Part shown: one piece after another, positions 2,852 to 18,442 of the stretch
Numbering within the stretch: position 1 is the stretch's first letter
Layout of the letters: each line of letters opens with the position of its first letter
Assembly (NCBI GenBank): GCA_947449035.1
Contig: CANFQC010000023.1
Location: 1 to 39,048 of the forward strand
Length of the DNA stretch: 39,048 nt
Direction of reading: 5' to 3'
Source: Actinomycetota bacterium
GTDB taxonomy: Bacteria > Actinomycetota > Actinomycetes > S36-B12
Made by a program: the position numbers and the translations under genes
Notes under the pieces: generated by a model
What the model was told of the DNA's origin: nothing
Database searches by the model: none
What the model saw: only the letters and a program-made list of their open reading frames with translations

Positions 2852-4429
2852 CTACTTCGCCACTGACTTCAGGAGTCCGAAGTTCACTGCGTCCTCAAGT
2901 GCCATCCATGACGCTGCGATCACGTTCTCGTGGACGCCAACCGTGGTCCAGTCGGTATCACCATCAGTAGTACTCACTAGCACGCGCGTGACCGCACCAG
3001 TACCTGAGCCTGCGTCGAGAATGCGCACCTTGTAGTCGATCAGGTGCAGCTGGGCAAGATTCGGGTACAACTGAAGTACCGCGCCACGAAGAGCGTTGTC
3101 GAGGGCATTGACCGGGCCGTTGCCCTCAGACGTTGAGATCACTCGCTCTCCGCCGAGATGCACCTTCACGGTGGCCTCGCTCTTCACGCTGCCGTCAGGA
3201 TGCTGTTCGACGATCGTGCGCCACGACTCAACCTCGAAGGTTCGCTCGAGGCCGCTTTCAGCCCGGAGGAGCAATTCGAATGACGCGTCGGCGGCCTCGA
3301 AACTCCAGCCCTTGTTCTCGAGCTCCTTGACCTTCTCGACTACGCGAGTAACCAGTGCAGGATCCGAGGCAACTTCGTAGCCGAGTTCACGGCTCTTTAA
3401 CTCCACCGTGGCACGACCTGCCATCTCCGTGACGAGCACGGCCTGGTCGTTACCGACGATCGCCGGGTCGATGTGGTTGTACAGATCCGCATTGACCTTC
3501 AGCGCCGAGGCATGAAGTCCTGCCTTGTGTGCGAAGGACGCCCAGCCGGCGTAGGGCTGATGCGTATTAGGTGCAATGTTGGCGAGTTCGGCGAGTGCGT
3601 GTGAGATGCGCACTGTCTCGCGAAGTGCACCCTCAGGGAGGCAGTCGATCCCGAGCTTGAGCTGCAGGTTCGGCACGACGACAAAGAGATCAGCGTTTCC
3701 GGTGCGCTCGCCGTAACCATTGGCGGTGACCTGCACGTGGGTGACGCCGGCCTCCACTGCAGATACCGAGTTCGCAATCGCGCAGCCAGTGTCATCCTGG
3801 CAGTGAATCCCCAGTCGAACTCCCGAGCGCTCGCGGACATCTGACACCACTTCATACATTCCGTGCGGGAGCATGCCACCGTTGGTGTCGCATAACACTC
3901 CCACAGAGGCGCCGGCCTCTGCCGCAGCCTTGAGCAGCCGCACACCGTAATCGGGATCATGCTTGTAACCGTCGAAGAAGTGCTCCATATCGACGAATAC
4001 ACGGCGCCCCTCGGCCACAAGGTAGGCGACGGTGTCGGTGACCATGTCGACGTTTTCGTCGAGCGAAGTCTTGAGCGCCTCGATCACGTGGCGCACATCT
4101 GACTTCGCGACCAAGGTCACGACCGGCGCCTGCGAGTCGAGAAGGGCGCGAACCTGGAGATCGTCGGTGACTTTCACTCCTGCCTTGCGTGTGGCACCGA
4201 AAGCGCAGAGCTCAGCGTTGTGGAGGGTCAGCTCCTTGCGAGCCCGCTCGAAGAACTCGGTGTCCTTGGGCATGGCTCCGGGCCAACCACCCTCGATGAA
4301 GCCCACGCCGTACTCGTCGAGAAGCCGGGCGACCTTGAGCTTGTCCTCCACGGAGTAGGAAATGCCCTCACGCTGGGCACCGTCGCGCAGCGTCGTGTCA
4401 TACACATGGAATGCATCCGGGCGGCTCAT
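2852..4429 (-). CDS. cimA: (R)-citramalate synthase
   Basis: The 525-aa protein belongs to the DRE-TIM homocitrate/isopropylmalate synthase superfamily. It has YDTTLRDGAQREG at 10-22, the metal-site region HCQDDTGCA, the NGYGERTGNADL motif and a C-terminal LeuA-type allosteric domain (about 400-525). The HCQDD form and the overall sequence fit the CimA group rather than LeuA, and a genuine LeuA is encoded at 6976-8727. CimA condenses pyruvate with acetyl-CoA to citramalate, giving 2-ketobutyrate for isoleucine without threonine deaminase. The ATG at 4429 is chosen because agaagga lies a few bases upstream; an in-frame ATG at 4450 lacks this. The gene has its own promoter and an isoleucine-codon attenuator between it and ilvE, which supports the isoleucine assignment. 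Confidence 0.92.
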   Translation of the reverse strand: MSRPDAFHVYDTTLRDGAQREGISYSVEDKLKVARLLDEYGVGFIEGGWPGAMPKDTEFFERARKELTLHNAELCAFGATRKAGVKVTDDLQVRALLDSQAPVVTLVAKSDVRHVIEALKTSLDENVDMVTDTVAYLVAEGRRVFVDMEHFFDGYKHDPDYGVRLLKAAAEAGASVGVLCDTNGGMLPHGMYEVVSDVRERSGVRLGIHCQDDTGCAIANSVSAVEAGVTHVQVTANGYGERTGNADLFVVVPNLQLKLGIDCLPEGALRETVRISHALAELANIAPNTHQPYAGWASFAHKAGLHASALKVNADLYNHIDPAIVGNDQAVLVTEMAGRATVELKSRELGYEVASDPALVTRVVEKVKELENKGWSFEAADASFELLLRAESGLERTFEVESWRTIVEQHPDGSVKSEATVKVHLGGERVISTSEGNGPVNALDNALRGAVLQLYPNLAQLHLIDYKVRILDAGSGTGAVTRVLVSTTDGDTDWTTVGVHENVIAASWMALEDAVNFGLLKSVAK

Positions 4430-4466
4430 GTTCCTTCTTCCCTGCTTCAACTTCTGTATCTCAATG

Positions 4467-4495
4467 AAAAAGCCTCCCGTGGGGCACGGAAGGCT
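4467..4495 (-). terminator. attenuator terminator in the cimA leader
   Basis: On the minus strand GCCTTCCGTG, a CCC loop, then CACGGGAGGC form a 10-bp stem with one G-U pair, extended by one A-T pair, followed directly by five T residues. It is a textbook intrinsic terminator placed between the isoleucine leader ORF and cimA, about 40 nt before the cimA start. Confidence 0.85.
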
Positions 4496-4519
4496 GCGCG
4501 TCGAGGTAAGTCGACGCGC
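4496..4519 (-). promoter_or_regulatory. 9-bp hairpin between Ile leader stop and terminator
   Basis: GCGCGTCGA and TCGACGCGC form a perfect 9-bp stem with a 6-nt loop. The 5' arm begins at the last base of the leader-peptide stop codon, and the 3' arm abuts the terminator stem. A ribosome that finishes the leader would mask the 5' arm; a ribosome stalled at the Ile codons would not. I found no obvious classical antiterminator pairing with the terminator arm, so how stalling is coupled to termination is open. Confidence 0.7.
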
Positions 4520-4545
4520 TACGTAATGATGATGGTGCTGGTCAC
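4519..4545 (-). CDS. isoleucine leader peptide of cimA (MTSTIIIT)
   Basis: A GTG-initiated 8-codon ORF reads MTSTIIIT and ends with TAG. Codons 5-7 are ATC ATC ATT, three consecutive isoleucines, directly before a hairpin, a terminator and cimA, whose product commits carbon to isoleucine. A TAACTT box ends 7 nt before the GTG and there is no Shine-Dalgarno, so the leader mRNA would be leaderless. It is too short for normal gene calling. Its layout (M, three residues, three end-product codons, T) matches the valine leader of ilvB. Confidence 0.82.
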   Translation of the reverse strand: MTSTIIIT

Positions 4546-4552
4546 GAGCTCT

Positions 4553-4558
4553 AAGTTA
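4553..4558 (-). promoter_or_regulatory. -10 box of the cimA leader transcript, overlapping the ilvE stop
   Basis: TAACTT on the minus strand lies exactly 7 nt upstream of the leader GTG. Its first three bases are the TAA stop codon of ilvE. The -35 region is not recognisable (ACAACT at a 17-nt spacing is a weak candidate). Confidence 0.6.
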
Positions 4559-5674
4559 GCAGATCGGGTGGAGCCAGTTGTGGGTGTCAGGGCTGGCCCC
4601 GGTCTGGATATCGAGGAGGGCCTGGCGCAGGGCCAAGGTGACCGGGCCGGAATCGCCTCGATTGATCTCCCAGGTGCCGCTTTCACGGCTCTTGACCTCG
4701 CCCACAGGCGTGATAACGGCCGCGGTGCCACAGGCGAAGACCTCAGTGATCTCCCCCGAGGCGCAGCCCTCGCGCCACATTTCGACGCTAATGCGGCCCT
4801 CGTCGGCCCGGATGCCGAGATCCTCTGCCACCTGGAGAAGGGAAGAACGAGTGATGCCAGGAAGCAAGGATCCCGTCAGTTCGGGGGTCACCAGGCGGGC
4901 TGAGTCTCCTGAGCCGTACACGAAGTACAGGTTCATACCGCCCATCTCCTCGATCCAGGCGTGCTCACTGGCATCGAGCCAGACGACCTGGTCGCAGCCA
5001 TGCTGAGCAGCCTCAGCCTGAGCAATCAGCGAGGCGGCGTAGTTGCCGGCGCACTTGGCCTCACCGGTGCCACCCTTCGCGGCACGCACATAGTCGTCAG
5101 AGAGCCACACGCTCACGGGCTTTACCCCGCGTGGGAAGTAGGCACCTGCCGGTGAGGCGATCAGGTAATAGTCGTACTGATTTGCCGGACGCACACCCAG
5201 GCCGACCTCGGTGGCAATCATGAAGGGGCGAAGGTAAAGCGACTTTTCCTGACCTGCGGGAACCCAATCGCGCTCCTGTCGTACGAGAGCCTCGACTGAG
5301 CCGAGGAAGAGCTCCTGGGGAAGCTCCGCCATCGCGAGTCGACGAGCAGACGCCGCGAAGCGCTGGGCATTACGCAGCGGACGGAAGGTCTTCACGCTGC
5401 CATCAGCGTGGCGGTAGGCCTTGAGCCCTTCGAAGATCGCTTGGCCGTAGTGCATGAAGTTGGTTGCAGGATCCAAGGTGATCGGGCCGTAGGGCACGAG
5501 CTCGGCGTCGTGCCATCCCTCATCAGTGGTCCAGCGAGCGTGGACCATGTTGTCGGTGAAGAAGCGACCGAAACCAGGGTCCGCCAAGATTGCATCGCGC
5601 TCAGCGGCGGACTTTGGATTCGACGACGGGTTGAGAGCGATCGGCCACAGGGCGGTACCGGTGTCGAGCGTCAT
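4556..5674 (-). CDS. ilvE: branched-chain amino acid aminotransferase
   Basis: This 372-aa fold-type IV PLP enzyme performs the last, reversible transamination for valine, leucine and isoleucine with glutamate as donor. K207 in GTGEAKCAGNY is the expected Schiff-base lysine; the HYGQAIFEGLKAY segment near 75-87 and the EMGGMNLYFV segment are typical of the actinobacterial IlvE subgroup. The ATG has a Shine-Dalgarno (aaggag, 7 nt upstream). It lies 29 nt downstream of leuB and is probably cotranscribed with it. Its stop codon doubles as the start of the -10 box of the cimA leader promoter. Confidence 0.95.
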   Translation of the reverse strand: MTLDTGTALWPIALNPSSNPKSAAERDAILADPGFGRFFTDNMVHARWTTDEGWHDAELVPYGPITLDPATNFMHYGQAIFEGLKAYRHADGSVKTFRPLRNAQRFAASARRLAMAELPQELFLGSVEALVRQERDWVPAGQEKSLYLRPFMIATEVGLGVRPANQYDYYLIASPAGAYFPRGVKPVSVWLSDDYVRAAKGGTGEAKCAGNYAASLIAQAEAAQHGCDQVVWLDASEHAWIEEMGGMNLYFVYGSGDSARLVTPELTGSLLPGITRSSLLQVAEDLGIRADEGRISVEMWREGCASGEITEVFACGTAAVITPVGEVKSRESGTWEINRGDSGPVTLALRQALLDIQTGASPDTHNWLHPIC

Positions 5675-5703
5675 CTGGACTCCTTGCGAGTGCGAGTAAT
5701 GAA

Positions 5704-6759
5704 TTACTTGGACAGTGCGACAGCGCCGGCCGCGAGGGCATCGCCGATCTGGCTGGTCGAACGAACTGCCGTGCCACGTGTGGCGAGGTCGTTCGCGACC
5801 GCGCCCTCAACCCACTGCGATGCCTCGGTGGCACCGACGTGATCGAGCAGCATCGCTAGCGACAGCGCAGTGGCGGTGGGGTCAGCCTTGCCTTGGCCTG
5901 CAATGTCGGGTGCAGAGCCATGCACAGGCTCGAACATGCTCGGATTGTTGCGGCTCGGATCGATATTGCCGGAAGCGGCGAGACCAATGCCACCGACGAT
6001 CGCGGCACCGATGTCGGTGATGATGTCGCCGAACAGGTTGTCGGTGACGATGACGTCGAAGCGCTCGGGGTTGGTCAGGAAGAACATCGAGGCTGCGTCG
6101 ACATGGCAGTAGTCGGTCTGCACGCCCGGGTACTCCTTGGCGACCTTGTCAAAGGTGCGCTGCCAGAGATCACCGGCGTAGACCAGCACGTTGGTCTTGT
6201 GCACGAGGGTGACCTTGTTGCGTCGACGAGTAGCGCGCTCGAAAGCGTCGCGGATGATGCGCTCGGCACCAAACTCCGTGTTGATGCTGACTTCGGTCGC
6301 GACCTCATGAACAGTGCCCTTGCGCACGGTGCCGCCGGCGCCAACGTACGGGCCCTCGGTGCCCTCGCGGCAGACGACGAAGTTGATGTCCTCGGGACCC
6401 TTGCCGGCAAGCGGACCGGTGACACCGGGGTACAAGCGCACTGGGCGCAGGTTCACGTGCTGGTCGAGGATGAAGCGCAGCGGGAGCAGCACGCCGCGCT
6501 CGAGGATGCCCGACTTCACGGACGGATCGCCGATCGCGCCCAGCAAGATCGCGTCAGCGCCGCGGAGCTCTTCGACCACAGAATCGGGCAGCAGTTCACC
6601 GGTCGCGTTGTAGCGACGGGCGCCCAGGTCGTACTCATTGGTGGCAATGGTCAGGCCGGCCGCGGGCGAGATCGCCTCAAGGACCTTGATGGCCTCGGCG
6701 ACGACCTCGGTGCCGATGCCGTCGCCGGGGATGAGGGCAAGATTTAGGGTGCGTGACAT
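5704..6759 (-). CDS. leuB: 3-isopropylmalate dehydrogenase
   Basis: The 351-aa protein oxidatively decarboxylates 3-isopropylmalate in leucine synthesis. It has [10 protein letters not shown] at the N-terminus, [10 protein letters not shown] substrate-side arginines, [14 protein letters not shown] (family lysine), the metal-binding aspartates in [10 protein letters not shown], and [13 protein letters not shown] near the NAD site. The sequence follows the actinobacterial LeuB type. The ATG has no Shine-Dalgarno; TAGGGT ends 7 nt upstream, suggesting a leaderless leuB-ilvE mRNA. It is divergent from leuA, with about 215 nt between the start codons. Confidence 0.95.
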
Positions 6760-6766
6760 GGGAAGA

Positions 6767-6772
6767 ACCCTA
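6767..6772 (-). promoter_or_regulatory. -10 box of leuB-ilvE (leaderless)
   Basis: TAGGGT on the minus strand, 7 nt before the leuB ATG, matches TANNNT with the spacing expected for transcription starting on the A of ATG. No clear -35 was seen. Confidence 0.55.
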
Positions 6773-6839
6773 CCGACGCTCCGCTCCCATGAGGGAAAAG
6801 GGTGAGGCAGGTCACCGCCCCGGACTAAGGGGCCACTGC

Positions 6840-6845
6840 TACCCT
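6840..6845 (+). promoter_or_regulatory. -10 box of leuA leader transcript
   Basis: TACCCT lies 9 nt before the ATG of the leucine leader ORF. With a usual 6-8 nt offset the transcript would start 1-3 nt before the ATG, so the leader would be nearly leaderless. No good -35 is seen in the upstream G+C-rich sequence. Confidence 0.45.
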
Positions 6846-6854
6846 GGGAGCATC

Positions 6855-6899
6855 ATGACGTCAGCGCGCCTCCTCCTTCGCTGCCGCAGCGGGGCCTAA
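6855..6899 (+). CDS. leucine leader peptide of leuA (MTSARLLLRCRSGA)
   Basis: The 14-codon ORF reads MTSARLLLRCRSGA and ends in TAA. Codons 6-8 are CTC CTC CTT, three leucines in a row, 98 nt before leuA. The 3' half of the ORF overlaps the 5' arm of a strong hairpin, so ribosome position would decide its folding. Leader peptides with leucine runs ahead of leuA are known in Actinobacteria. The ORF is too short for standard callers. Confidence 0.82.
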   Translation: MTSARLLLRCRSGA

Positions 6900-6951
6900 C
6901 ACCGGCCTCCCCGCTGCGGGATTCGTCGTTGCCGGTTTCCCCCAGACGAAT
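6884..6951 (+). promoter_or_regulatory. LEU-type structured leader of leuA with loop-loop (pseudoknot) pairing
   Basis: Hairpin A pairs 6884-6894 (CCGCAGCGGGG) with 6909-6919 (CCCCGCTGCGG), 11 perfect bp. Hairpin B pairs 6921-6927 (ATTCGTC) with 6945-6951 (GACGAAT), 7 bp. ACCGGC at 6901-6906 in loop A is complementary to GCCGGT at 6931-6936 in loop B, so a pseudoknot or kissing loop can form. There is no U-tract, so transcription termination is unlikely; the structure ends about 25 nt before the leuA start and may control translation. A conserved pseudoknot upstream of actinobacterial leuA (the LEU element) has been described, and I infer this is an instance. Confidence 0.75.
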
Positions 6952-6972
6952 AAGCCCCAGCAGCAGGAGTAA

Positions 6973-9289
<2,317 letters not shown>

Positions 9290-9293
<4 letters not shown>

Positions 9294-11251
9294 AGCGACT
9301 GCTCCGGCTCAGCGAACTGGCTCTGATAGAGGTCGTAGTAGAAGCCATGCGCGGCCATCAACTGCTCGTGGTCTCCCTGCTCGACGATCGAGCCGTCACG
9401 CATCACGACAATGACATCGGCATTGCGAATTGTCGAGAGCCGGTGCGCGATAACGAAACTCGTTCGACCCTTGCGTAGCTCGGCCATGGCGCGCTGGATG
9501 AGTACTTCGGTGCGGGTATCGACTGAGCTGGTGGCCTCATCAAGAATGAGCACCGCGGGGTCTGCCAAGAAGGCACGGGCAATGGTGAGTAGTTGTCGCT
9601 CACCCGCGCTGATGTTCGCCGCCTGCTCAGTGAGCTTGGTGGCAAAGCCATCGGGCAGGGTGCGGATGAAGTGCTCGGCGAAGGACGCGCGAGCGGCTCG
9701 CTCGACATCCGCCGGGGTAGGCGCATCGGCCCCGTAGGCGATGTTGTCGTAGATCGTGCCTTCGAAGAGCCAGGTGTCCTGCAGGACCATGCCGAAGCAG
9801 CGTCGCACATCGGCACGAGTGGCATCGCGTGTATCGACACCGTCGATCAGGATTCGACCTGCCTGAATCTCGTAGAACCTCATGAGCAGGTTGACCAGGG
9901 TGGTCTTGCCGGCGCCTGTTGGGCCGACGATCGCAATGGTCTGGCCGGGCAGCACGTCGAGGCTCATGTCCTCGATCAGTGGGGTGTCTTCGAGATAGCG
10001 GAAGCGCACGTTCTCAAAGCTGATCCGCCCCGAAGGATCCGAGAGCGGGATCGGCGTCGAGGAGTCAGGTGCCTGATCTTCTGCGTCGAGAAGCTCGAAT
10101 ACCCGCTCGGCTGAGGCCGCGCCTGACTGCAGAAGATTTGCCACGCCGGCGATCTGGGTGATCGGCATCGTGAACTGACGCGAGTACTGGATGAAGGCCT
10201 GGACATCGCCGAGGGACATCGACCCACTCGCCACTCGCAAGCCGCCGAATACCGCGATGGCAACGTAGTTCAAGTTTGAGATGAGCATCAGTGCCGGCTG
10301 GATGATTCCCGAGATGAACTGGGCCTTGAAGCTGCTCTCGGCCATCACCTCATTGGTGCGATCAAAGTCCGAGATCGCCTTATCGCGGTGTCCGTAGAGG
10401 CGCACCAGCTCGTGCCCGGAGAACATCTCCTCAACGATGGAGTTGAGCTCGCCCGTGGACTTCCACTGGGCGGCGAAGTGAGGCTTGGAGCGCTTTGCGA
10501 TCACCATGGTGACCAGGAATGACAGCGGAACTGTCAGCACGGAGATCAACGCCAGGATCGGTGAGATCCAGACCATCATCGCCAGTACGCCTATCACCGT
10601 CAGCACGGCTGTCACCAATTGAGTGAGAGTCTGCTGAAGGGTCATCGAAATGTTGTCGATGTCATTGGTCACTCGGCTGAGGAGATCGCCCCGAGATGTT
10701 CTATCGAAATAGCTCAGCGGTAGGCGCCCCAACTTGGCGTCGACCTCTTCGCGAAGGCGATACATCGTGCGCTGGGTGACCCCGGCCATGAGGTAGTTCT
10801 GGGCCCACGAGAGAACGGAGGCCAAGAAGTAGACGACCGCAACAAGGGCCAGGAGCTGGGCGAGCGCGGTGAAGTCGACGCCTTGACCTGGGGTGATGGT
10901 CATCGCCGCGAGCATGTCGGCCTGACGTGACTCCCCTGCCGCGCGCAGATTCTCGACCGCTTGCGCCTGGGTAACCCCAGCGGGGATCTTGGCGCTCAGG
11001 ACTCCATCGAAGATCAGGTTTGTGGCATTGCCGAGCAGTTTCGGTCCGAGCACGGTCAAGAAGACGCTTGCGATGCCAAGCGCGAGAACGAGCACGGCAA
11101 TGCGTCGCTCCGGTCGAAGCCTCGACGAGAAACGGCGAAGCGAGCCACGGAAGTCCTTGGCCTTCTCCGCGGAGGGCACCATCGCCATGCCGGGAGGGCC
11201 GCCACCCATCGGGCCACGAGCCGGCGGCGCACCTGGCCGCTGAACACTCAT
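9290..11251 (-). CDS. ABC exporter subunit, catalytic half of a heterodimer
   Basis: This 653-aa membrane-fused ABC protein has a Gly/Pro-rich N-terminal tail (1-30), six predicted transmembrane segments between about 50 and 345, and an ATPase domain. Walker A is GPTGAGKT (443-450), Walker B is LILDE with the catalytic E572, and the switch histidine is H603. The signature is degenerate: NISAGERQ (546-553) instead of LSGGQ. Its start overlaps the stop of the partner gene by 4 nt. Together they fit the TM287/288, LmrCD and BmrCD class of heterodimeric exporters, usually multidrug or lipid exporters. The cargo is unknown. Confidence 0.9.
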
Positions 11252-12981
11252 GACGCAGCCCCCACTTCAGCCTGGGAGTCCACGATCTCGCGGTAGGTCT
11301 CGCAACTGAGCAGGAGTTCGTCATGCGTACCCCGACCGACAATCACTCCTTCATCCATCACCAGGATCTGGTCGGCAGTCGTGATTGAGGCGACGCGTTG
11401 GGCGACGATGATGACAGTGGCGCCTTCGACGGAGTCGCGAAGCGCTCGACGCAGACGCGCATCGGTGGCGTAGTCAAGGGCGGAGAAACTGTCATCGAAG
11501 ACGTAGATGGCGGGGCGTCGCACGAGGGCTCGCGCAATCGCCAGGCGCTGACGCTGCCCACCAGAGAAATTCGCACCACCTTGTTCAACCACTGAGTCGA
11601 GTCCGTCTGGTAGAGCGCGGACGAAATCAGCAGCCTGAGCGATCTCCAATGCCCCCCAGATATCGGTTTCAGTTGCTTCCGGGAGCCCGAAGCGCATATT
11701 GCTGGCGATGGTGCCGGTGAAGAGGAAGGCCTTCTGCGGCACCAGTCCGAAAGCCGCCCAGAGTTCCTCCTGGGGGGTCTCCCGGACGTCGATGCCGCCG
11801 ATGCGCACCGATCCCTCGGTGACATCGAGCAGGCGTGGGAGCAGGTTGACCAAAGTGGTCTTGCCCGAGCCTGTGCCTCCGATGATCGCGGTCGTACTTC
11901 CTGACGGGATCTCGATGTCGATGCCTCGAAGAATCGATTCCTCGGCTCCGGGATACCTGAATCCCACGTTAATGAACTCAACATGACCGAGACGCTCGCC
12001 ATCGGGGCGTTGCTGATGTGCCGGATCGATGATGTCGGGAACTGTATTCAGCACCTCATTGATGCGGTCAGCGGAGGCAGCTGCCCGCGGCACCATCATC
12101 AAGGTCATCACTGCCATCATCACCGAGAAGAGAATCTGCATGATGTAGGCGAGGAATGCGGTTAGGTTTCCGATTGGCATCGAACCATCAGCCACCAAGT
12201 GACCCCCGAACCACAGCACCGCGACCGAGGACAGGTTCATCACGAGCAGCAGCATCGGCAGCACCATGGCAAAGATGCGAGTCACCTTGAGGGTTGTGTC
12301 AGTGAGATCGTCGTTCGCCTCGGCAAATCGGAGCTCCTCAATCGGAGTTCGATTGAAAGCGCGCACCACGCGAATACCTGTCAAGTTCTCGCGCAACACC
12401 TGATTCACTCGATCGATCTTGACCTGCATCACTTTGAAGAGCGGGATCGCCTTGAAGATCATGATGGAGATAACACCGAGCATGAGCGGGATGATCACGA
12501 TAAGCAGGAGCGAGAGTTGGGCGTTCTCGCGCACGGCCATGATCACCGCACCGACAGCCGTGATGGGGGCAAGCACCATCATGGTCAGTCCGGTCATCAC
12601 CAGCATCTGAATTTGCTGCACATCGTTCGTATTGCGGGTGATCAGGGACGGAACACCTAGTGCATTCACCTGGCTGAGCGAAAGAGACTCAACCCTCCTG
12701 AACACATCTCCGCGAATATCTCGCCCTAGTCGCATCGCTGTTCTCGCACTGAAGTAGACCGCAATGATGGACGAGATGCCGAGGATCACGGAGAGGAGCA
12801 GCATGATGCCGCCTGCCCGCACGATGTAGCCGATGTCTCCGGTGATCACGCCCTGGTTGATGATGTCGGCGTTCAGGTTCGGGAGATAGAGGTTCGTGAC
12901 CACCTGGATCAGCAGAAGGAAGGCGATGAGGAGAAGCACTAGTCGATGGGGTCGCAGATAGCGACCGAGCAGTGCATTCAC
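11248..12981 (-). CDS. ABC exporter subunit, degenerate half of a heterodimer
   Basis: The 577-aa protein has six transmembrane segments (about 12-300) and an ATPase domain with Walker A GGTGSGKT (368-375) and an intact signature FSGGQ (472-476). Walker B reads YVFDD, so the catalytic glutamate is replaced by D497, and the switch histidine is replaced by Q528 in VAQRVAS. These changes mark the degenerate ATP site of heterodimeric exporters such as TM287, and they complement the normal Walker B and odd signature of the partner. The GTG start lies 6 nt after a TAGAGT box with no proper Shine-Dalgarno, so the mRNA is probably leaderless. This is the first gene of a two-gene operon. Confidence 0.9.
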   Translation of the reverse strand: MNALLGRYLRPHRLVLLLIAFLLLIQVVTNLYLPNLNADIINQGVITGDIGYIVRAGGIMLLLSVILGISSIIAVYFSARTAMRLGRDIRGDVFRRVESLSLSQVNALGVPSLITRNTNDVQQIQMLVMTGLTMMVLAPITAVGAVIMAVRENAQLSLLLIVIIPLMLGVISIMIFKAIPLFKVMQVKIDRVNQVLRENLTGIRVVRAFNRTPIEELRFAEANDDLTDTTLKVTRIFAMVLPMLLLVMNLSSVAVLWFGGHLVADGSMPIGNLTAFLAYIMQILFSVMMAVMTLMMVPRAAASADRINEVLNTVPDIIDPAHQQRPDGERLGHVEFINVGFRYPGAEESILRGIDIEIPSGSTTAIIGGTGSGKTTLVNLLPRLLDVTEGSVRIGGIDVRETPQEELWAAFGLVPQKAFLFTGTIASNMRFGLPEATETDIWGALEIAQAADFVRALPDGLDSVVEQGGANFSGGQRQRLAIARALVRRPAIYVFDDSFSALDYATDARLRRALRDSVEGATVIIVAQRVASITTADQILVMDEGVIVGRGTHDELLLSCETYREIVDSQAEVGAAS

Positions 12982-12987
12982 CTTTCG

Positions 12988-12993
12988 ACTCTA
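12988..12993 (-). promoter_or_regulatory. -10 box of the ABC exporter operon
   Basis: TAGAGT on the minus strand, 6 nt before the GTG of the 577-aa subunit. It fits TANNNT and a leaderless start. No -35 was recognised. Confidence 0.45.
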
Positions 12994-13050
12994 ACCCGCC
13001 ACCACACCCCAATGCGCACCACTCCCCTGCGAGCGAACACCCCCGGAAAC

Positions 13051-13083
13051 GCAAGAACCCCGGTCAATGACCGGGGCTCTTGC
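13051..13083 (-). terminator. terminator-like hairpin after serA
   Basis: GCAAGAGCCCCGGT and ACCGGGGTTCTTGC form a 14-bp stem with one G-T wobble and a 5-nt loop, starting 11 nt after the serA stop codon. A U-tract is lacking, which is common for actinobacterial terminators. Confidence 0.75.
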
Positions 13084-13094
13084 AGGAGATTGTG

Positions 13095-14681
13095 TTAGCC
13101 GACGAGATCGACCGACTCTGCCCAGTTCGCGCCAATGGCGGTCGAGATGCCCTCGAGGGTGGCCTTGTCGACCGCGGAGTCAACGGTCAAGACGACGAGA
13201 GCTGAGCCGGCGTTATCGGGGCTGACCTGCATGCCGCCGATGTTGATACCTGCCTCGCCGAGCTTCTGGCCAATGGTGCCGACCACGCCGGGACGATCGC
13301 TGTAGTTCAGGAAGATCAGGTGATCGCTGACCTGCACGTCAACATCGTGCCCATCGACCTCGACCAGCTTGGCGATATGTCGCGGACCTGCGACCGTGCC
13401 GGCAACACTGACCGACTTTCCGTTGGTGAGGGTCAGCGTGACGCGCACCAAGGAGCGATGATCGGGGCTGACGGTGTCAGAGGTCAGCGCGACCTCAACA
13501 CCGCGCTGCTGCGCGAGCACGGGAGCATTGACGAACGAGACCGGGTCATTGACGAGCACCTGGAAGACACCCTTGAGCGCCGAGAGCTCAAGAACGCGAA
13601 CATCTTCTACCGCGGCCTCACCCAGCACCTGCACATCGACACGCACAACCGCGTCGGTGGCAAGGCCGCAGGCGATGGAACCCAGTTGCTCGGTCAGCGG
13701 CAGGAGCGGCTTGATGATCTGAGCGAGCTGCCCACCTTGAACGTTGACCGCATCGGGAACGAGTTCACCTGCGAGGGCGAGACGTACCGAACGAGCCACG
13801 GCAATGCCGGCCTTCTCCTGCGCCTCATCGGTCGAGGCACCCAGGTGCGGGGTTGCGACAACCTGCTCAAGAGTGAACAGCGGAGAGTCGGTGCAGGGCT
13901 CCTTGTTGAACACGTCTAGGCCGGCGCCGGCAACGCGACCGTCGACGAGTGCCTGGTACAGAGCGGCTTCATCGACGATGCCACCGCGAGCGGCATTGAT
14001 GATGTGCACAGTCGGCTTGACCTTGTGCAGCGCCTCGTCGCCGATCAGGCCCACGGTCTCGGGGGTCTTGGGAAGATGAACGGTAATGAAGTCGGCTTCG
14101 GCGAGCAGGTCATCGAGACTGACCATGCGTACGCCCAGCTGAGCAGCACGCGCCGGCTGCACGTAGGGGTCATAGGCGATGAGCTTCACGCCGAATGCGG
14201 AGAGGCGCTGAGCGACGAGCACGCCGATTCGACCGAGGCCGACCACACCCACGACCTTGTCAGCTACCTCCACGCCGGTGTACTTCGAGCGCTTCCACTC
14301 ACCATTGGCGAGTGCTGCGGCTGCGGGCACCACATTGCGCGCCGAGGCGAGCAGGAGGGCAACGGCGAGCTCGGCTGCCGAGACGATGTTTGAGGTCGGC
14401 GCATTGACAACCATCACACCGGCCTGAGTGGCCGCCTTGACGTCGACATTGTCGAGTCCGACACCCGCGCGGGCGATCACCTTCAGGTTCTTTGCTGCGG
14501 CAATGGCCTCAGCATCAACCTGGGTCGCCGAGCGCACGAGGATGGCGTCGACATCGGCGATCGCGGGAAGCAGCTCGGCGCGGTTGGCGCCATCGCACTT
14601 CACGATCTCGAAGTCAGGGCCGAGGGCCTCGACGGTGGCGGGAGAGAGCTCTTCGGCGATGAGTACACGGGGCTTGGTCAC
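13095..14681 (-). CDS. serA: D-3-phosphoglycerate dehydrogenase
   Basis: The 528-aa enzyme catalyses the first step of serine synthesis, oxidising 3-phosphoglycerate with NAD. It has the NAD motif VVGLGRIG (G148, G150, G153), catalytic R232, E261 and H279, an intervening domain of the long mycobacterial type, and a C-terminal ACT domain (about 455-528, SDRPGVVGTIG) where serine feedback acts in homologues. The length equals that of the long-form actinobacterial SerA. The GTG start has no Shine-Dalgarno; TAGGAT ends 6 nt upstream. It is separated from ilvC by a strong hairpin, so it is transcribed from its own promoter. Confidence 0.95.
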   Translation of the reverse strand: MTKPRVLIAEELSPATVEALGPDFEIVKCDGANRAELLPAIADVDAILVRSATQVDAEAIAAAKNLKVIARAGVGLDNVDVKAATQAGVMVVNAPTSNIVSAAELAVALLLASARNVVPAAAALANGEWKRSKYTGVEVADKVVGVVGLGRIGVLVAQRLSAFGVKLIAYDPYVQPARAAQLGVRMVSLDDLLAEADFITVHLPKTPETVGLIGDEALHKVKPTVHIINAARGGIVDEAALYQALVDGRVAGAGLDVFNKEPCTDSPLFTLEQVVATPHLGASTDEAQEKAGIAVARSVRLALAGELVPDAVNVQGGQLAQIIKPLLPLTEQLGSIACGLATDAVVRVDVQVLGEAAVEDVRVLELSALKGVFQVLVNDPVSFVNAPVLAQQRGVEVALTSDTVSPDHRSLVRVTLTLTNGKSVSVAGTVAGPRHIAKLVEVDGHDVDVQVSDHLIFLNYSDRPGVVGTIGQKLGEAGINIGGMQVSPDNAGSALVVLTVDSAVDKATLEGISTAIGANWAESVDLVG

Positions 14682-14687
14682 CCAAGA

Positions 14688-14693
14688 ATCCTA
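14688..14693 (-). promoter_or_regulatory. -10 box of serA (leaderless)
   Basis: TAGGAT on the minus strand ends 6 nt before the serA GTG. It matches TANNNT, and no ribosome-binding site lies between. Confidence 0.55.
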
Positions 14694-14778
14694 TCGGGGA
14701 CCGTGAGGAGCGCTCACCGCGCAGGTGGGGCTGTGAACGAGGTCACCTCCCCCACAAGGACGGCACCCCGAGCATGCG

Positions 14779-14807
14779 AATGGCCCGCCGGATTCCGGCG
14801 GGCCATT
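14779..14807 (-). terminator. terminator hairpin after ilvC
   Basis: AATGGCCCGCCGG and CCGGCGGGCCATT form a perfect 13-bp stem with a 3-nt loop, 9 nt beyond the ilvC stop. It has no U-tract. It should end the ilvBNC transcript before serA. Confidence 0.8.
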
Positions 14808-14816
14808 CACGGGGTA

Positions 14817-15878
<1,062 letters not shown>

Positions 15879-15898
15879 CTAATGGTTGAGGGTATCGG

Positions 15899-15915
15899 CC
15901 CGCTCCTCAGGCGGG
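15899..15915 (-). other. small hairpin in the ilvN-ilvC gap
   Basis: CCCGC and GCGGG pair around a 7-nt loop that holds a purine-rich TGAGGA-like stretch. The 93-nt ilvN-ilvC gap is otherwise relatively A+T-rich and includes TACCCT and TTAATAC stretches that could serve as an internal promoter. Function is uncertain. Confidence 0.3.
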
Positions 15916-15938
15916 TAATTCGGCAGGGAACCGGGCGC

Positions 15939-16463
15939 TCAGGCTCCCTTGTCGGCCGGACGAGCGGCCCGGTCGGTGATGGACCGGGCGCCACGGCCGA
16001 CAGCGACCATGCCTGACTGCACGAGCTCCTTGACCCCGAAGGGCTCAAGAACCTTCAGCAGGGCGGTGAGCTTGTCGTTGTTTCCGGTGGCCTCAATCGT
16101 CAAGGCGTCGGGTGCAACGTCGACCACTTTGGCCCGGAACATCTGGACGGTCTCCAGGATGCTCGAGCGCGACTCATTGTCGGAGCGCACCTTGACGAGC
16201 ATGATCTCGCGCTGGACCGATGACTCCGCATCGAGTTCAACGATCTTGAGCACGTTGATCAACTTGTTGAGCTGCTTGGTCACCTGCTCGAGCGGGGAAT
16301 CCTCAACATTGACCACGATGGTCATGCGCGAGATATCCGAGATCTCGGTCGGGCCGACCGCGAGCGACTCGATGTTGAATCCGCGGCGGGAGAACAACGA
16401 GGCCACGCGTGCGAGCACGCCGGGCTTGTTCTCGACTAGTACGGACAGTGTGTGCCTGGACAT
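15939..16463 (-). CDS. ilvN: acetohydroxyacid synthase small (regulatory) subunit
   Basis: The 174-aa protein has an N-terminal ACT domain (about 4-80: NKPGVLARVASLFSRRGFNI) that binds valine in homologues, and a C-terminal domain (about 85-160). It activates the large subunit and confers feedback inhibition. Its ATG overlaps the ilvB stop as TGATG, so the two are translationally coupled. Confidence 0.95.
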   Translation of the reverse strand: MSRHTLSVLVENKPGVLARVASLFSRRGFNIESLAVGPTEISDISRMTIVVNVEDSPLEQVTKQLNKLINVLKIVELDAESSVQREIMLVKVRSDNESRSSILETVQMFRAKVVDVAPDALTIEATGNNDKLTALLKVLEPFGVKELVQSGMVAVGRGARSITDRAARPADKGA

Positions 16464-18205
16464 CAGTCGTCACTTCCCCACTCGGGCGCCAAGTCGCGCG
16501 CAATCTGAATGTCATCGTTACTTGCACCGGCTGCGACCATCGGCCACACCATGGCATCGCGGTGGACGATGAAGTCGATGACCACCGGTGCATCGTTCAG
16601 GCTCAAAGCCTTTTCGATTGTCGCGTCGACCTCATCGGGTGACTCGCAGCGCAGGCCGTGGCAACCGTAGGCATCGGCCAGCTTCACGAAGTCGGGGATG
16701 CGGTACGAGTGCAGATCGGTATTCGAGTAACGGGAGTTGTAGAACAGGGTCTGCCACTGGCGAACCATGCCGAGGCTGGAGTTGTTCATGAGTGCGACCT
16801 TGATCGGGATCTCGTTGATGGTGCAGGTGACGAGCTCCTGATTGGTCATCTGGAAGCAACCATCACCATCGACGGCCCAGACGGTCTTGTCGGGAGCACC
16901 GACCTTTGCGCCCATCGCGGCAGGAACTGCGAAGCCCATGGTTCCGAGGCCACCGGAGTTGATCCAGGTGTTGGGCTTCTCGTAGTTGATGAACTGCGCT
17001 GCCCACATCTGGTGTTGACCCACGCCCGCGGCGAAGATCGAGTCGGTGCCGGAGATCTCGCCGAGGCGCTTGATGACGTACTGCGGTGCGAGTGAACCGT
17101 CGTCGGGTGTCTCGTAACCCAGCGGGTAGGTCTCCTTCATCCGGGTGAGTTGCTGCCACCAGGCTCCGTAGTCACCGCGTCGACCTGCTTCGAACTCTGC
17201 CTCAAGAGCCACGATGAGCTCGGGAATGATCTCTGAAAGATCGCCCACGATCGGCACATCGGCGTGGCGGTTCTTGCCGATCTCGGCAGGATCAATGTCG
17301 GCATGAATGACAGCGGCGTTAGGCGCGAAGGTCGACAGCTTGCCGGTGACTCGATCGTCGAAGCGCGCGCCCAAGGTAATGAGCAGATCCGACTGCTGGA
17401 GTGCGCCGACCGCAGAGACCGAACCGTGCATGCCCGGCATGCCCATGTGCTGAGGATGAGTGTCGGGGAATGCGCCACGGGCCATCAGCGTGGTGACCAC
17501 CGGCAGGCCGGCAATCTCGGCGAGCTTTCGCAGTGACTCGGATGCGCCGGCGCGAATCACGCCGCCGCCGATGTAGAGCACCGGCGCCTTGGCATCGACG
17601 ATCATGCGGGCGGCCTCGCGCACCTGCTTGGCGTGCGGGCGAGTGACCGGGTGGTAGCCCGGGAGATCAATGCTGGAGGGCCACTCGAAGGTGGTCATTG
17701 CCTGCAGGGCGTCCTTGGCCACGTCGACGAGCACGGGGCCGGGGCGACCGGAGGACGCCAGGTAGAAGGCTTCCGCGATCGCGCGCGGGATGTCGTCTGC
17801 CTTGGTGACCAGGAAGCTGTGCTTGGTGATCGGCATCGTGATGCCGCGGATGTCGGCCTCCTGGAAGGCATCGGTACCGATGAAGGAGGAGGAGACCTGG
17901 CCGGTGATGGCCACCATCGGCACCGAGTCCATGTTGGCGTCAGCGATCGGGGTCACGAGGTTCGTGGCGCCGGGGCCTGAGGTCGCCATGCAGACGCCGA
18001 CCTTGCCGCTGGTGTACGCGTAGCCCTCGGCCGCATGCCCGGCACCTTGCTCGTGACGTACGAGGATGTGCCGGATTTGGCTCGAGTCCATGAGGGGGTC
18101 GTAGAGGGGCAGGATCGCCCCGCCCGGGATGCCGAAGATGTCGGTCACCCCTGCCGACTCCAGGGAGTGCACCAGGCTCTGTGCCCCGGTGATCTGCTCG
18201 CTCAT
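16463..18205 (-). CDS. ilvB: acetohydroxyacid synthase large (catalytic) subunit
   Basis: The 580-aa thiamin-diphosphate enzyme makes acetolactate and acetohydroxybutyrate, the common first step for valine, leucine and isoleucine. It has the catalytic glutamate E52 in [23 protein letters not shown], and the TPP-binding [12 protein letters not shown] with [12 protein letters not shown]. The ATG at 18205 has a gaagga Shine-Dalgarno. It is preceded by a valine leader peptide and terminator and is followed by ilvN and ilvC in one operon. Confidence 0.96.
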
Positions 18206-18236
18206 CAGTTCCTTCTTCTGCCGTGCCTATTCAATG

Positions 18237-18269
18237 AAAAACCCCCCGACCCGGCTGGGTAACGGAGGG
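18237..18269 (-). terminator. attenuator terminator in the ilvB leader
   Basis: On the minus strand CCCTCCG, a TT bulge and ACCC pair with GGGT and CGGGGGG around an AGCC loop (11 bp including one T-G pair), followed directly by five T residues. It lies between the valine leader ORF and ilvB. Confidence 0.85.
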
Positions 18270-18270
18270 C

Positions 18271-18303
18271 GCGCGTGGGGTGTATGCGTATCAGCCCACG
18301 CGC
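18271..18303 (-). promoter_or_regulatory. 9-bp hairpin between Val codons and terminator
   Basis: GCGCGTGGG and CCCACGCGC pair perfectly around a 15-nt loop. The 5' arm lies in leader codons 9-12 and the 3' arm ends 1 nt before the terminator stem, the same layout as in the cimA leader. A ribosome that reaches the leader stop would block it. A classical antiterminator is not obvious. Confidence 0.65.
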
Positions 18304-18329
18304 TCGGTAACTACTACATGCTGTGCCAC
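18291..18329 (-). CDS. valine leader peptide of ilvB (MAQHVVVTERVG)
   Basis: A GTG-initiated 12-codon ORF reads MAQHVVVTERVG and ends in TGA. Codons 5-7 are GTA GTA GTT, three valines. It is followed by a hairpin, a terminator with a U-tract and ilvB. Its GTG lies 7 nt after a -10 box with no Shine-Dalgarno, so the leader is predicted to be translated from a leaderless 5' end. Leader peptides with terminators before ilvB are known in Streptomyces, Mycobacterium and Corynebacterium. Confidence 0.85.
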   Translation of the reverse strand: MAQHVVVTERVG

Positions 18330-18336
18330 GAGAAGA

Positions 18337-18365
18337 ACCTTACCCAGCCCGCTCACTCCTGTCAC
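18337..18365 (-). promoter_or_regulatory. promoter of the ilvB leader and ilvBNC
   Basis: The -35 GTGACA (18360-18365) and -10 TAAGGT (18337-18342) are separated by 17 nt, and the -10 ends 7 nt before the leader GTG. This is the best-formed sigma-70-type promoter in the window. Confidence 0.7.
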
Positions 18366-18396
18366 CCCCTAATCACGTGAGCCAGGCCACGAAATC

Positions 18397-18422
18397 GACC
18401 CCCGTCAGCAGGGACGGGGGTC
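18397..18422 (-). terminator. terminator hairpin after ilvD
   Basis: GACCCCCGTC and GACGGGGGTC form a perfect 10-bp stem with a 6-nt loop, about 20 nt past the ilvD stop. There is no U-tract. It isolates ilvD from the ilvB promoter just beyond. Confidence 0.75.
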
Positions 18423-18442
18423 AATTCGGGTGAAACAGGTCG

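Follow-up and report, generated by a model that had tools for sequence, protein, structure and literature searches.

Does the isoleucine branch of actinobacterial amino acid biosynthesis carry a switch of its own? The question is raised by contig CANFQC010000023.1 of the Actinomycetota assembly GCA_947449035.1, a stretch of 39,048 nucleotides (nt; "the window") in which cimA, encoding citramalate synthase, is preceded by a very short open reading frame (ORF) with three consecutive isoleucine codons. A preliminary description of the window had reported three leader ORFs, with LLL, III and VVV runs before leuA, cimA and ilvB, respectively; when translated and read in place, all three were present as stated. 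Comparison with related loci and RNA folding indicate that the cimA leader is probably an isoleucine-sensing, ribosome-mediated transcription attenuator, representing one use of an actinobacterial branched-chain cassette. With different control codons, this cassette would also serve ilvB and, in a different class of the phylum, leuA.

The cimA leader ORF lies on the minus strand (4519..4545) and reads GTG ACC AGC ACC ATC ATC ATT ACG TAG, encoding the eight-residue peptide MTSTIIIT; it is conserved in relatives, and its isoleucine control codons ATC ATC ATT occupy 4525..4533. At cimA there is thus a short ORF whose repeated codons specify the amino acid that the pathway makes, as expected of a ribosome-mediated attenuator. 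To follow it across relatives we used 161 cimA upstream regions, that of the window and those of 160 relatives: the best 80 of 266 loci of one genome scan, 60 class-level stretches and 20 order-level stretches. The class-level stretches came from 22 families and the order-level stretches from 6 (28 families together), hand-chosen by family. The genome collections behind these loci partly overlap (L008, for example, is possibly the genome of G001), and the sets are not fully independent. A first scan, restricted to ORFs of at most 40 amino acids and to 300 nt, missed Streptomyces-like leaders located about 170 to 260 nt upstream, and the rules were then widened. The doublet rule asked for an ORF start no more than nine codons upstream of an isoleucine doublet, so that the runs it finds have at least two codons, and its terminator criterion was a T run 15 to 90 nt behind the stop codon.

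An isoleucine doublet in a short ORF was found in 119 of the 161 upstream regions, whereas 20 dinucleotide shuffles averaged 4.85 and reached 9 at most. When a terminator-like T run was demanded as well, isoleucine scored 105 regions, followed by arginine (23), serine (18), histidine (11), valine (6) and leucine (2). An earlier form of the rule gave 122 doublets on the sense strand, 107 of them with a terminator, compared to 9 and 1 on the antisense strand. The rule behind the counts of 119 and 105 was adjusted on the loci being counted. Four controls are free of this adjustment: the shuffles, the other amino acids, the antisense strands and the ilvB loci described below.

Two hairpins follow the leader on the minus strand. 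The first, hp1 (4496..4519), pairs GCGCGTCGA with TCGACGCGC, and its first base is the last base of the TAG stop codon. It is adjoined by an intrinsic terminator, AGCCTTCCGTG...CACGGGAGGCT followed by a T run (4467..4495). Both hairpins were identified by folding and covariation, and the rule counts likewise place an intrinsic terminator between the leader and cimA. The geometry is tightly kept: among the 105 cimA leaders found by the rule, hp1 began 4 to 5 nt past the isoleucine run in 85 and shared its first base with the end of the stop codon in 52, the stop codon was UAG in 80, and the spacer between hp1 and the terminator was 0 to 2 nt in 104. In an alignment of 28 cimA elements, 92.4% of the cells were paired (83.7 in shuffles, 42–57% with slid partners), and both sides had changed in 10 of the 17 pairs (7.0 in shuffles).

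R1, a covariance model covering hp1 and the terminator, was trained on these 28 sequences, that is, on the window's leader and 27 others (16 near relatives and 11 class- or order-level loci) drawn from 55 non-redundant references with an isoleucine run and a simple layout. The training loci match by construction, and the E-values of R1 are rough. The window's own cimA element, a training sequence, scored 63.3 bits (4467..4524, minus strand). R1 matched 75 of the 80 near-relative loci (59 of 64 outside the training set) and 63 of the 80 class- and order-level loci (49 of 60 and 14 of 20, respectively; 52 of 69 outside the training set). Control-site codons were read in 137 of the 138 sense matches, the partial match at L151 being excluded. 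Every one of the 137 had at least one isoleucine codon at the control site and 118 had a doublet; the remaining 19 mostly read CIT, LIT, AIT, IKI, IVI, ISI or MIMG (by eye, with start codons unchecked). The doublet rule also returned histidine in 43 and serine in 39 of 75 near-relative matches, and each in 9 of 62 matches elsewhere. These arise from ATCATC read out of frame, and only the isoleucine frame was taken, because it alone leads into the leader stop codon.

These comparisons bear on the simplest alternative, that the LLL, III and VVV runs arose by chance within short ORFs. Within the window alone this would be hard to dismiss for one of the runs: ATCATCATT occurs once where 0.34 occurrences are expected, which is not remarkable by itself, while GTAGTAGTT occurs once against 0.02 expected and CTCCTCCTT twice against 0.27. 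Single-window statistics were accordingly set aside as proof, being too weak for ATCATCATT, and the comparative counts were used instead. With 119 regions against a shuffle maximum of 9, and an isoleucine codon at every control site read, the comparative data contradict chance and leave it a negligible probability.

The runs themselves vary in a manner expected from selection on codon meaning, since their third positions change synonymously (ATC-ATC-ATT in 28, ATT-ATT in 24, ATC-ATT in 12, and others). The preliminary description had generalized from the window that each run is three codons long and ends in a T-ending codon. This did not hold among relatives: the 105 rule-found runs comprise two to four codons, and the last is ATT in 80 and ATC in 25. 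Less used synonyms appear to be favored at control sites, as ATT makes up only 19% of the isoleucine codons when usage is counted over 18 long window ORFs taken as genes. From three codons before the run through the stop codon, the 105 leaders contain 283 isoleucine, 42 valine and 36 leucine codons, and 51 of them, including the window's, have isoleucine codons only. Some cimA leaders continue through hp1 as ilvB leaders do (IIIVRRAG, IIIRERVDV, ITIICERVG). In the Streptomyces-like family f24, five leaders (L123, L125, L126, L151 and L152) have one MIIG or TIIG doublet, a tail that is mostly SRRAGPQ and a long insert inside hp1, and two loci (L124 and L150) have MIMG in place of the doublet.

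Where would the leader RNA begin? A putative -10 box, TAACTT (4553..4558, minus strand), lies 7 nt 5' of the leader start, overlaps the stop codon of the upstream gene ilvE and predicts a leaderless transcript. A box of the form [CT]ANNNT stood 6 or 7 nt before an in-frame start in 88 of the 105 leaders, compared to at most 5 leaders for each other gap from 2 to 24 nt, and TGN preceded the box in 78 of the 88, as in an extended -10 element. Judged by this spacing, the transcript probably begins at the start codon of the leader, which is GTG in the window. Such an arrangement has precedents: leader peptides of Streptomyces lividans are encoded by leaderless transcripts (PMC8079986), and the transcript of Corynebacterium glutamicum ilvL starts one nucleotide from the leader start codon (PMC11857589). 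The preliminary description had suggested checking frame, codon run and start in related genomes. For cimA the outcome was favorable, in view of the 119 doublets and the 88 spaced boxes, and a separate isoleucine leader on this gene is conserved in frame, codons, start and structure at most loci examined.

We then asked whether the same arrangement occurs at ilvB. On the minus strand, the ilvB leader ORF (18291..18329) reads GTG GCA CAG CAT GTA GTA GTT ACC GAG CGC GTG GGC TGA (MAQHVVVTERVG), with valine control codons GTA GTA GTT at 18309..18317. A -10 box, TAAGGT (18337..18342), lies 7 nt 5' of the start; hp1, GCGCGTGGG...CCCCACGCGC (18271..18303), folds 5 nt past the valine run; and a terminator with a T run (18237..18270), supported by folding and by the R1 match, adjoins it. 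The match itself (18237..18308, minus strand) scored 30.9 bits outside the training set. At both genes of the window hp1 therefore begins 5 nt past the control run, after ATT ACG TA at cimA and after GTT ACC GA at ilvB, and in each case with GCGC. GTA accounts for 5% of the valine codons in the 18 long ORFs, so the ilvB run too uses a less used synonym.

The resemblance is general. R1, which was trained on cimA only, matched 54 of 60 ilvB upstream regions in the sense orientation at E ≤0.01, and because a cimA-trained model also detects ilvB, the two genes share, by this sequence evidence, one hairpin-plus-terminator cassette. Its pattern was found at both: a branched-chain run, a gap of 4 to 5 nt, a hairpin with a GCGC base and, immediately adjoining it, a terminator. 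In the window's genome R1 gave exactly two matches to E = 0.01, at cimA and ilvB, among the candidates scored (150 of 1,762 first-look candidates). In 20 relatives, 27 of the 30 R1 loci returned were at cimA or ilvB, as judged by tblastn of the gene behind or beside the match; the exceptions were L263 (a contig end with an ilvB-like leader), L274 and L275, and two further weak rows had no locus. Among 51 genomes in which both regions were examined, 43 had the cassette at both genes, 2 at cimA only, 3 at ilvB only and 3 at neither. Promoter spacing was similar as well: in 55 ilvB leaders the gap from the -10 box was 6 nt in 19 and 7 nt in 16, every other gap being found at most 4 times. The onset of hp1 was 4 to 5 nt past the run in 33 of 43 ilvB loci, these being the 43 of 61 where the rule detected both elements.

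The control codons of ilvB are less uniform than the window suggests. Valine stood at codon -2 in 45 of 55 ilvB R1 matches. We read leader tails of 14 residues, which may include codons upstream of the true start; within the window's family the runs were rich in valine, with isoleucine in 8 of 10 tails and leucine in 7 of 10, while outside it isoleucine occurred in 37 and leucine in 43 of 47 tails, typically as ILVL or LILVL. As read from these tails, the pure VVV of the window's ilvB leader is a local feature, and ilvB control codons are mixed in most genomes.

The position of the cimA leader, which starts 10 nt past the ilvE stop codon in the window, suggests another reading, in which the two hairpins simply end transcription of the ilvE (leuB-ilvE) unit upstream, as a double terminator, and the small ORF is incidental. 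That ilvE is upstream in 69 of the 80 near relatives, and that no antiterminator is visible, would fit such a role. However, R1 matched in 34 of the 41 class-level loci (of 60) that had no match to the ilvE C-terminus in the stretch fetched, and the same structure precedes ilvB with a different codon run. A double terminator would also not conserve isoleucine codons, reading frame and -10 spacing. We therefore regard this explanation as very unlikely.

How, then, might an attenuator of this form work? The cassette has a fixed order: a leaderless start codon, a run of control codons, about 5 nt, the GC hairpin hp1 and an abutting terminator. In the mechanism that we propose, RNA would start at the leader GTG. 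When tRNA-Ile is charged, the ribosome would reach the stop codon and mask the 5' arm of hp1, and the terminator would halt transcription ahead of cimA. When tRNA-Ile is uncharged, the ribosome would stall at the isoleucine run, hp1 would be free to fold, and transcription would proceed into cimA. The ORF, promoter spacing, isoleucine codons, hp1, terminator, covariation and conservation are read from the sequence; leader translation, stalling and the direction of the response are what we infer. Over the 105 leaders, the mean minimum free energy of the RNA up to the terminator loop was -20.0, -9.9 and -4.5 kcal/mol with the A site at the first isoleucine codon, the last isoleucine codon and the stop codon, respectively. 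These ribosome-masked energies point to hp1 as the part whose folding reports the position of the ribosome, and by likeness to published ilvB attenuators hp1 may be the ON-side element.

Several observations weigh against this interpretation. Some concern the switch itself. A classical 2:3 antiterminator, exclusive with the terminator as in the usual definition of attenuation, was not found in the co-transcriptional intermediates of the 105 leaders. Pairing of the terminator 5' arm rose by more than 0.3 above the stop state in none of the 105 leaders with the ribosome at the last isoleucine codon and in one with the ribosome at the first, and it fell by more than 0.3 below it in 4 and 16, respectively. 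For the window's leader, the minimum-energy fold retains the terminator in each stalled state. With the last isoleucine codon in the A site, hp1 is already partly masked. A folded hp1 would also have to weaken a terminator with which it does not overlap. In Streptomyces coelicolor, alteration of the presumed control codons of ilvB left regulation unchanged, as reported in the 2005 survey (PMC1262725). Other points concern conservation. The count of further pair types in the alignment (24) was not clearly above that of the shuffles (22.1; 89 of 500 were as high), 17 of the 105 leaders lack a -10 box by our rule, and R1 found no match at 22 of the 160 cimA loci, among them every locus of families f23 (five) and f31 (three). 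Finally, 54 of the 105 cimA leaders have a valine or leucine codon near the isoleucine run, and the sensor may not be strictly isoleucine-specific everywhere. The suggestion in the preliminary description that each arm senses its own amino acid is best borne out for cimA, and in the window it agrees with the leucine leader of leuA and the valine leader of ilvB; these extra codons and the mixed ilvB leaders of relatives do not support it as a general rule. As hp1 alone depends clearly on the position of the ribosome, our claim is that the cimA leader would work like an attenuator, and it does not extend to the classical definition.

Two candidate antiterminators were considered and rejected. 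A 10-nt complement at ilvB, GGCTGGGTAA (18349-18340) with TTACCCAGCC in the terminator (18262-18253), overlaps the -10 box and is probably untranscribed (by eye, in the window only). An extension of hp1 into the base of the terminator, as proposed for C. glutamicum, appears not to be general, as the spacer is 0 to 2 nt and the adjacent bases are mostly unpaired (by eye).

The missing antiterminator leaves room for a second form of attenuation, in which hp1 acts as an anti-antiterminator or to induce pausing, while antitermination depends on a pairing that our folds did not reveal, whether tertiary, pseudoknotted or protein-assisted. It is consistent with the coexistence of hp1 and the terminator in minimum-energy folds, and a model with an anti-antiterminator and a role for pausing has been put forward for C. 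glutamicum (PMC11857589). However, hp1 folds in the first-isoleucine stall. Moreover, a terminator protected by hp1 would lose that protection whenever isoleucine is present and the ribosome at the stop codon masks hp1. The end product would then turn expression on, the opposite of what such a switch should do. We consider this version possible but doubtful, and less likely than an ON-side hp1. It could also be speculated that the terminator is secondary and that the main effect of the leader is on mRNA stability or translation, or is exerted by its peptide in trans. A leader peptide acting in trans, peTrpL, is known, and the S. coelicolor codon changes without effect would be accommodated. 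On the other hand, the cimA leader peptides differ outside their isoleucine codons (VTSTIIIT, VLSTAIIIA, MTFCLIIP, MSPQAIIIVRRAG), which argues against a trans-acting peptide, and the terminator with the T's behind it is conserved, which argues against a translational role. This explanation is unlikely, and transcription attenuation gated by hp1 remains the reading that we prefer.

How does such a switch compare with known systems? Trp-type attenuation has end-product control codons, a leader stop codon near the hairpins and a terminator before the first gene. The cimA leader is alike in general layout and differs in that a segment 2:3 antiterminator overlapping the terminator was not found. 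Closer relatives are the leader-peptide attenuators of ilvB (ilvBNC) known in Actinobacteria, including the Corynebacterium ilvB-II motif (PMC1262725, PMC10272879 and PMC11857589). They likewise comprise branched-chain codons in a short ORF, a hairpin that overlaps this ORF or follows it, and a terminator with a U run, and the window's ilvB leader belongs here. At cimA, by contrast, the control codons are isoleucine codons and the gene is the entry step to isoleucine. The cimA ORF also mostly stops at the base of hp1; at this point the ilvB leader of the window has a GAG codon and continues. Antiterminators proposed for ilvB involve either pairing of the P1 loop with the lower 3' side of P2 or a shared GCC. 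Nothing evidently equivalent is seen in the compact form at cimA, in which the hp1 loop is often only 3 to 6 nt (by eye). For ilvB1 of Mycobacterium tuberculosis, one report states that a stalled ribosome permits the antiterminator and a ribosome at the stop codon blocks it (PMC13236596), and published results on ilvB attenuation in C. glutamicum, C. ulcerans and M. tuberculosis agree with the direction of response proposed here (PMC11857589, PMC10272879, PMC13236596).

In Streptomyces lividans TK24, the accessible part of one study lists eight leaderless leader peptides (two leu, two trp, ala, ilv, met and thr), of which ilvL, MRTRILVLGKRVG, is similar to the ilvB leader of the window and leuL1, MRFGLLLLSCRGEGL, to its leuA leader (PMC8079986). 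That list, in the part available, is without cimA, yet f24 genomes in our set, which their size and an identical ilvL mark as probable Streptomyces, carry the MIIG or TIIG leader before cimA. The word cimA has no occurrence in PMC8079986, PMC4833913, PMC2965389 or PMC13236596, nor is the gene mentioned in the accessible portion of the 2005 survey PMC1262725. The preliminary description knew of no account of a separate isoleucine attenuator on cimA, and we too found no description of the cimA leader among the papers listed in searches of the open-licence literature, although an older account may exist elsewhere. One paper, on Methanothermobacter (PMC13158618), has a single occurrence each of cimA, citramalate synthase and leader peptide. 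The ilvB attenuators and the LEU element of leuA are thus already known, and the cimA leader is apparently undescribed in the literature searched.

The leuA leader is of a different kind. Its ORF (6855..6899, plus strand) encodes MTSARLLLRCRSGA, with the LLL run, and overlaps a LEU element (6867..6969, plus strand), assigned from the fold of 6855-6990, from relatives and from the definition in the 2005 survey, which describes this element before leuA in Actinobacteria (PMC1262725). In the fold, the leucine-codon region pairs with the Shine-Dalgarno region of leuA (AGGAG, 6965-6969), as it should in a LEU element. Complementary arms ACCGGC (6901-6906) and GCCGGT (6931-6936) are present, with similar CCGG arms in relatives (by eye). 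R1 had no match to E = 1 in 6855-6976, and no T run was seen behind a hairpin there (by eye). With its leucine run, base stem with the Shine-Dalgarno sequence, complementary arms of a possible pseudoknot and lack of a terminator, the window's leuA leader is, by sequence and predicted fold, the published LEU element, without essential difference from it and unlike the cassettes of cimA and ilvB. The three leaders consequently do not form one scheme in this genome, as had been suggested: cimA and ilvB share a cassette, and leuA has a LEU element with no R1 match.

In another class of the phylum, on the other hand, the R1 cassette was found before leuA itself, with leaders MSQNLLLT (L276:1501-1561) and MTSTRIHRSALLLL (L285:1501-1557). 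Their control codons are LLL and LLLL, and the downstream genes score over the TIGR00973 cut-off. The same class has a valine-rich cassette upstream of ilvB, with leaders MKTRTFARGTVVVFV (L287) and MGFKDRTGLLVVVT (L286); there ilvB starts about 0.5 to 0.65 kb behind the match, and another small gene may intervene. No cimA cassette was seen in this class (that of G464), as neither an R1 match at E ≤0.01 nor a rule-found isoleucine-doublet leader was detected in four genomes. The cimA gene is present in four of five genomes of the class, and three of those four have the cassette upstream of leuA or ilvB. A phylum-wide R1 search, with stricter filters and 36 candidates scored per genome, found the cassette in at least 13 of 149. 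In yet other classes, L278 and L284 have a cassette with a VLLIT leader, behind which comes a small ORF that begins MRFELYGRDRVGT or MKFEIYNGEHVGT; the one in L284 lies before ilvB.

These comparisons suggest that the same module, as recognized by R1, is in use with isoleucine, valine-rich and leucine control codons. Copying between pathway genes followed by re-coding is what we infer from this. The codon swaps that the preliminary description had proposed for reporter fusions thus have a natural counterpart in that other class, with leucine codons at leuA and valine-rich codons upstream of ilvB, although the window is not arranged so. Extended to Actinobacteria at large, one may tentatively picture a common, movable branched-chain cassette in which two to four control codons set the specificity before a fixed two-hairpin module (III at cimA, V-rich at ilvB, LLL at leuA in another class). 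It would have been copied and re-coded. No classical antiterminator would be needed, since hp1, gated by the ribosome, would itself weaken the terminator that it abuts. This wider proposal is rather less likely to be right than wrong.

What does the genome context add? The window comes from a draft genome of 2.36 Mb that is 97.7% complete. The cimA gene (2852..4450, minus strand) scored 621.4 bits with TIGR00977 (cut-off 450), and leuA (2-isopropylmalate synthase; 6976..8727, plus strand) and ilvB (acetolactate synthase large subunit; 16463..18205, minus strand) match NCBIfam profiles; leuB and ilvE are situated between leuA and cimA. Threonine deaminase, ilvA, sought with TIGR01127 as the sole model, was not above cut-off in the window's genome or two congeners, and because of this the genus probably has no entry to isoleucine other than cimA, which fits an isoleucine switch at this gene. 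Of 16 genomes searched, 7 had ilvA above the cut-off, and since 6 of these 7 (G030, G052, G055, G082, G006 and G009, but not G007) also have an R1 match before cimA, the switch appears to be independent of ilvA loss.

Some observations concern the records themselves. The closest cimA relatives, among the best 80 of 266 loci, are actinobacterial metagenome-assembled genomes, several of them titled Candidatus Nanopelagicales. Six records titled Bifidobacterium breve (L011, L012, L014, L016, L043 and L061) have a cimA 72–81% identical to that of the window; their isolate names look like those of environmental metagenome-assembled genomes, and the titles are probably wrong. The cimA of L054, titled Rubrivirga sp., is likewise near actinobacterial cimA (74%). 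In a search of the window against Rfam up to E = 1, nothing reached a gathering score; the single match, ffh at 26 bits (gathering score 35; 18384-18428), spans a stem-loop behind ilvD that is probably the ilvD terminator.

For isoleucine control of actinobacterial cimA, no mechanism is described in the literature searched, and the conserved leader supplies one that can be tested. That no antiterminator is evident is also relevant to an older puzzle, the codon changes in the S. coelicolor ilvB leader that are reported to be without regulatory effect (PMC1262725). A module that nature has codon-swapped on three pathway genes offers a comparison for the evolution of leader specificity, and it may provide a basis for re-coding amino acid sensors in industrial producers.

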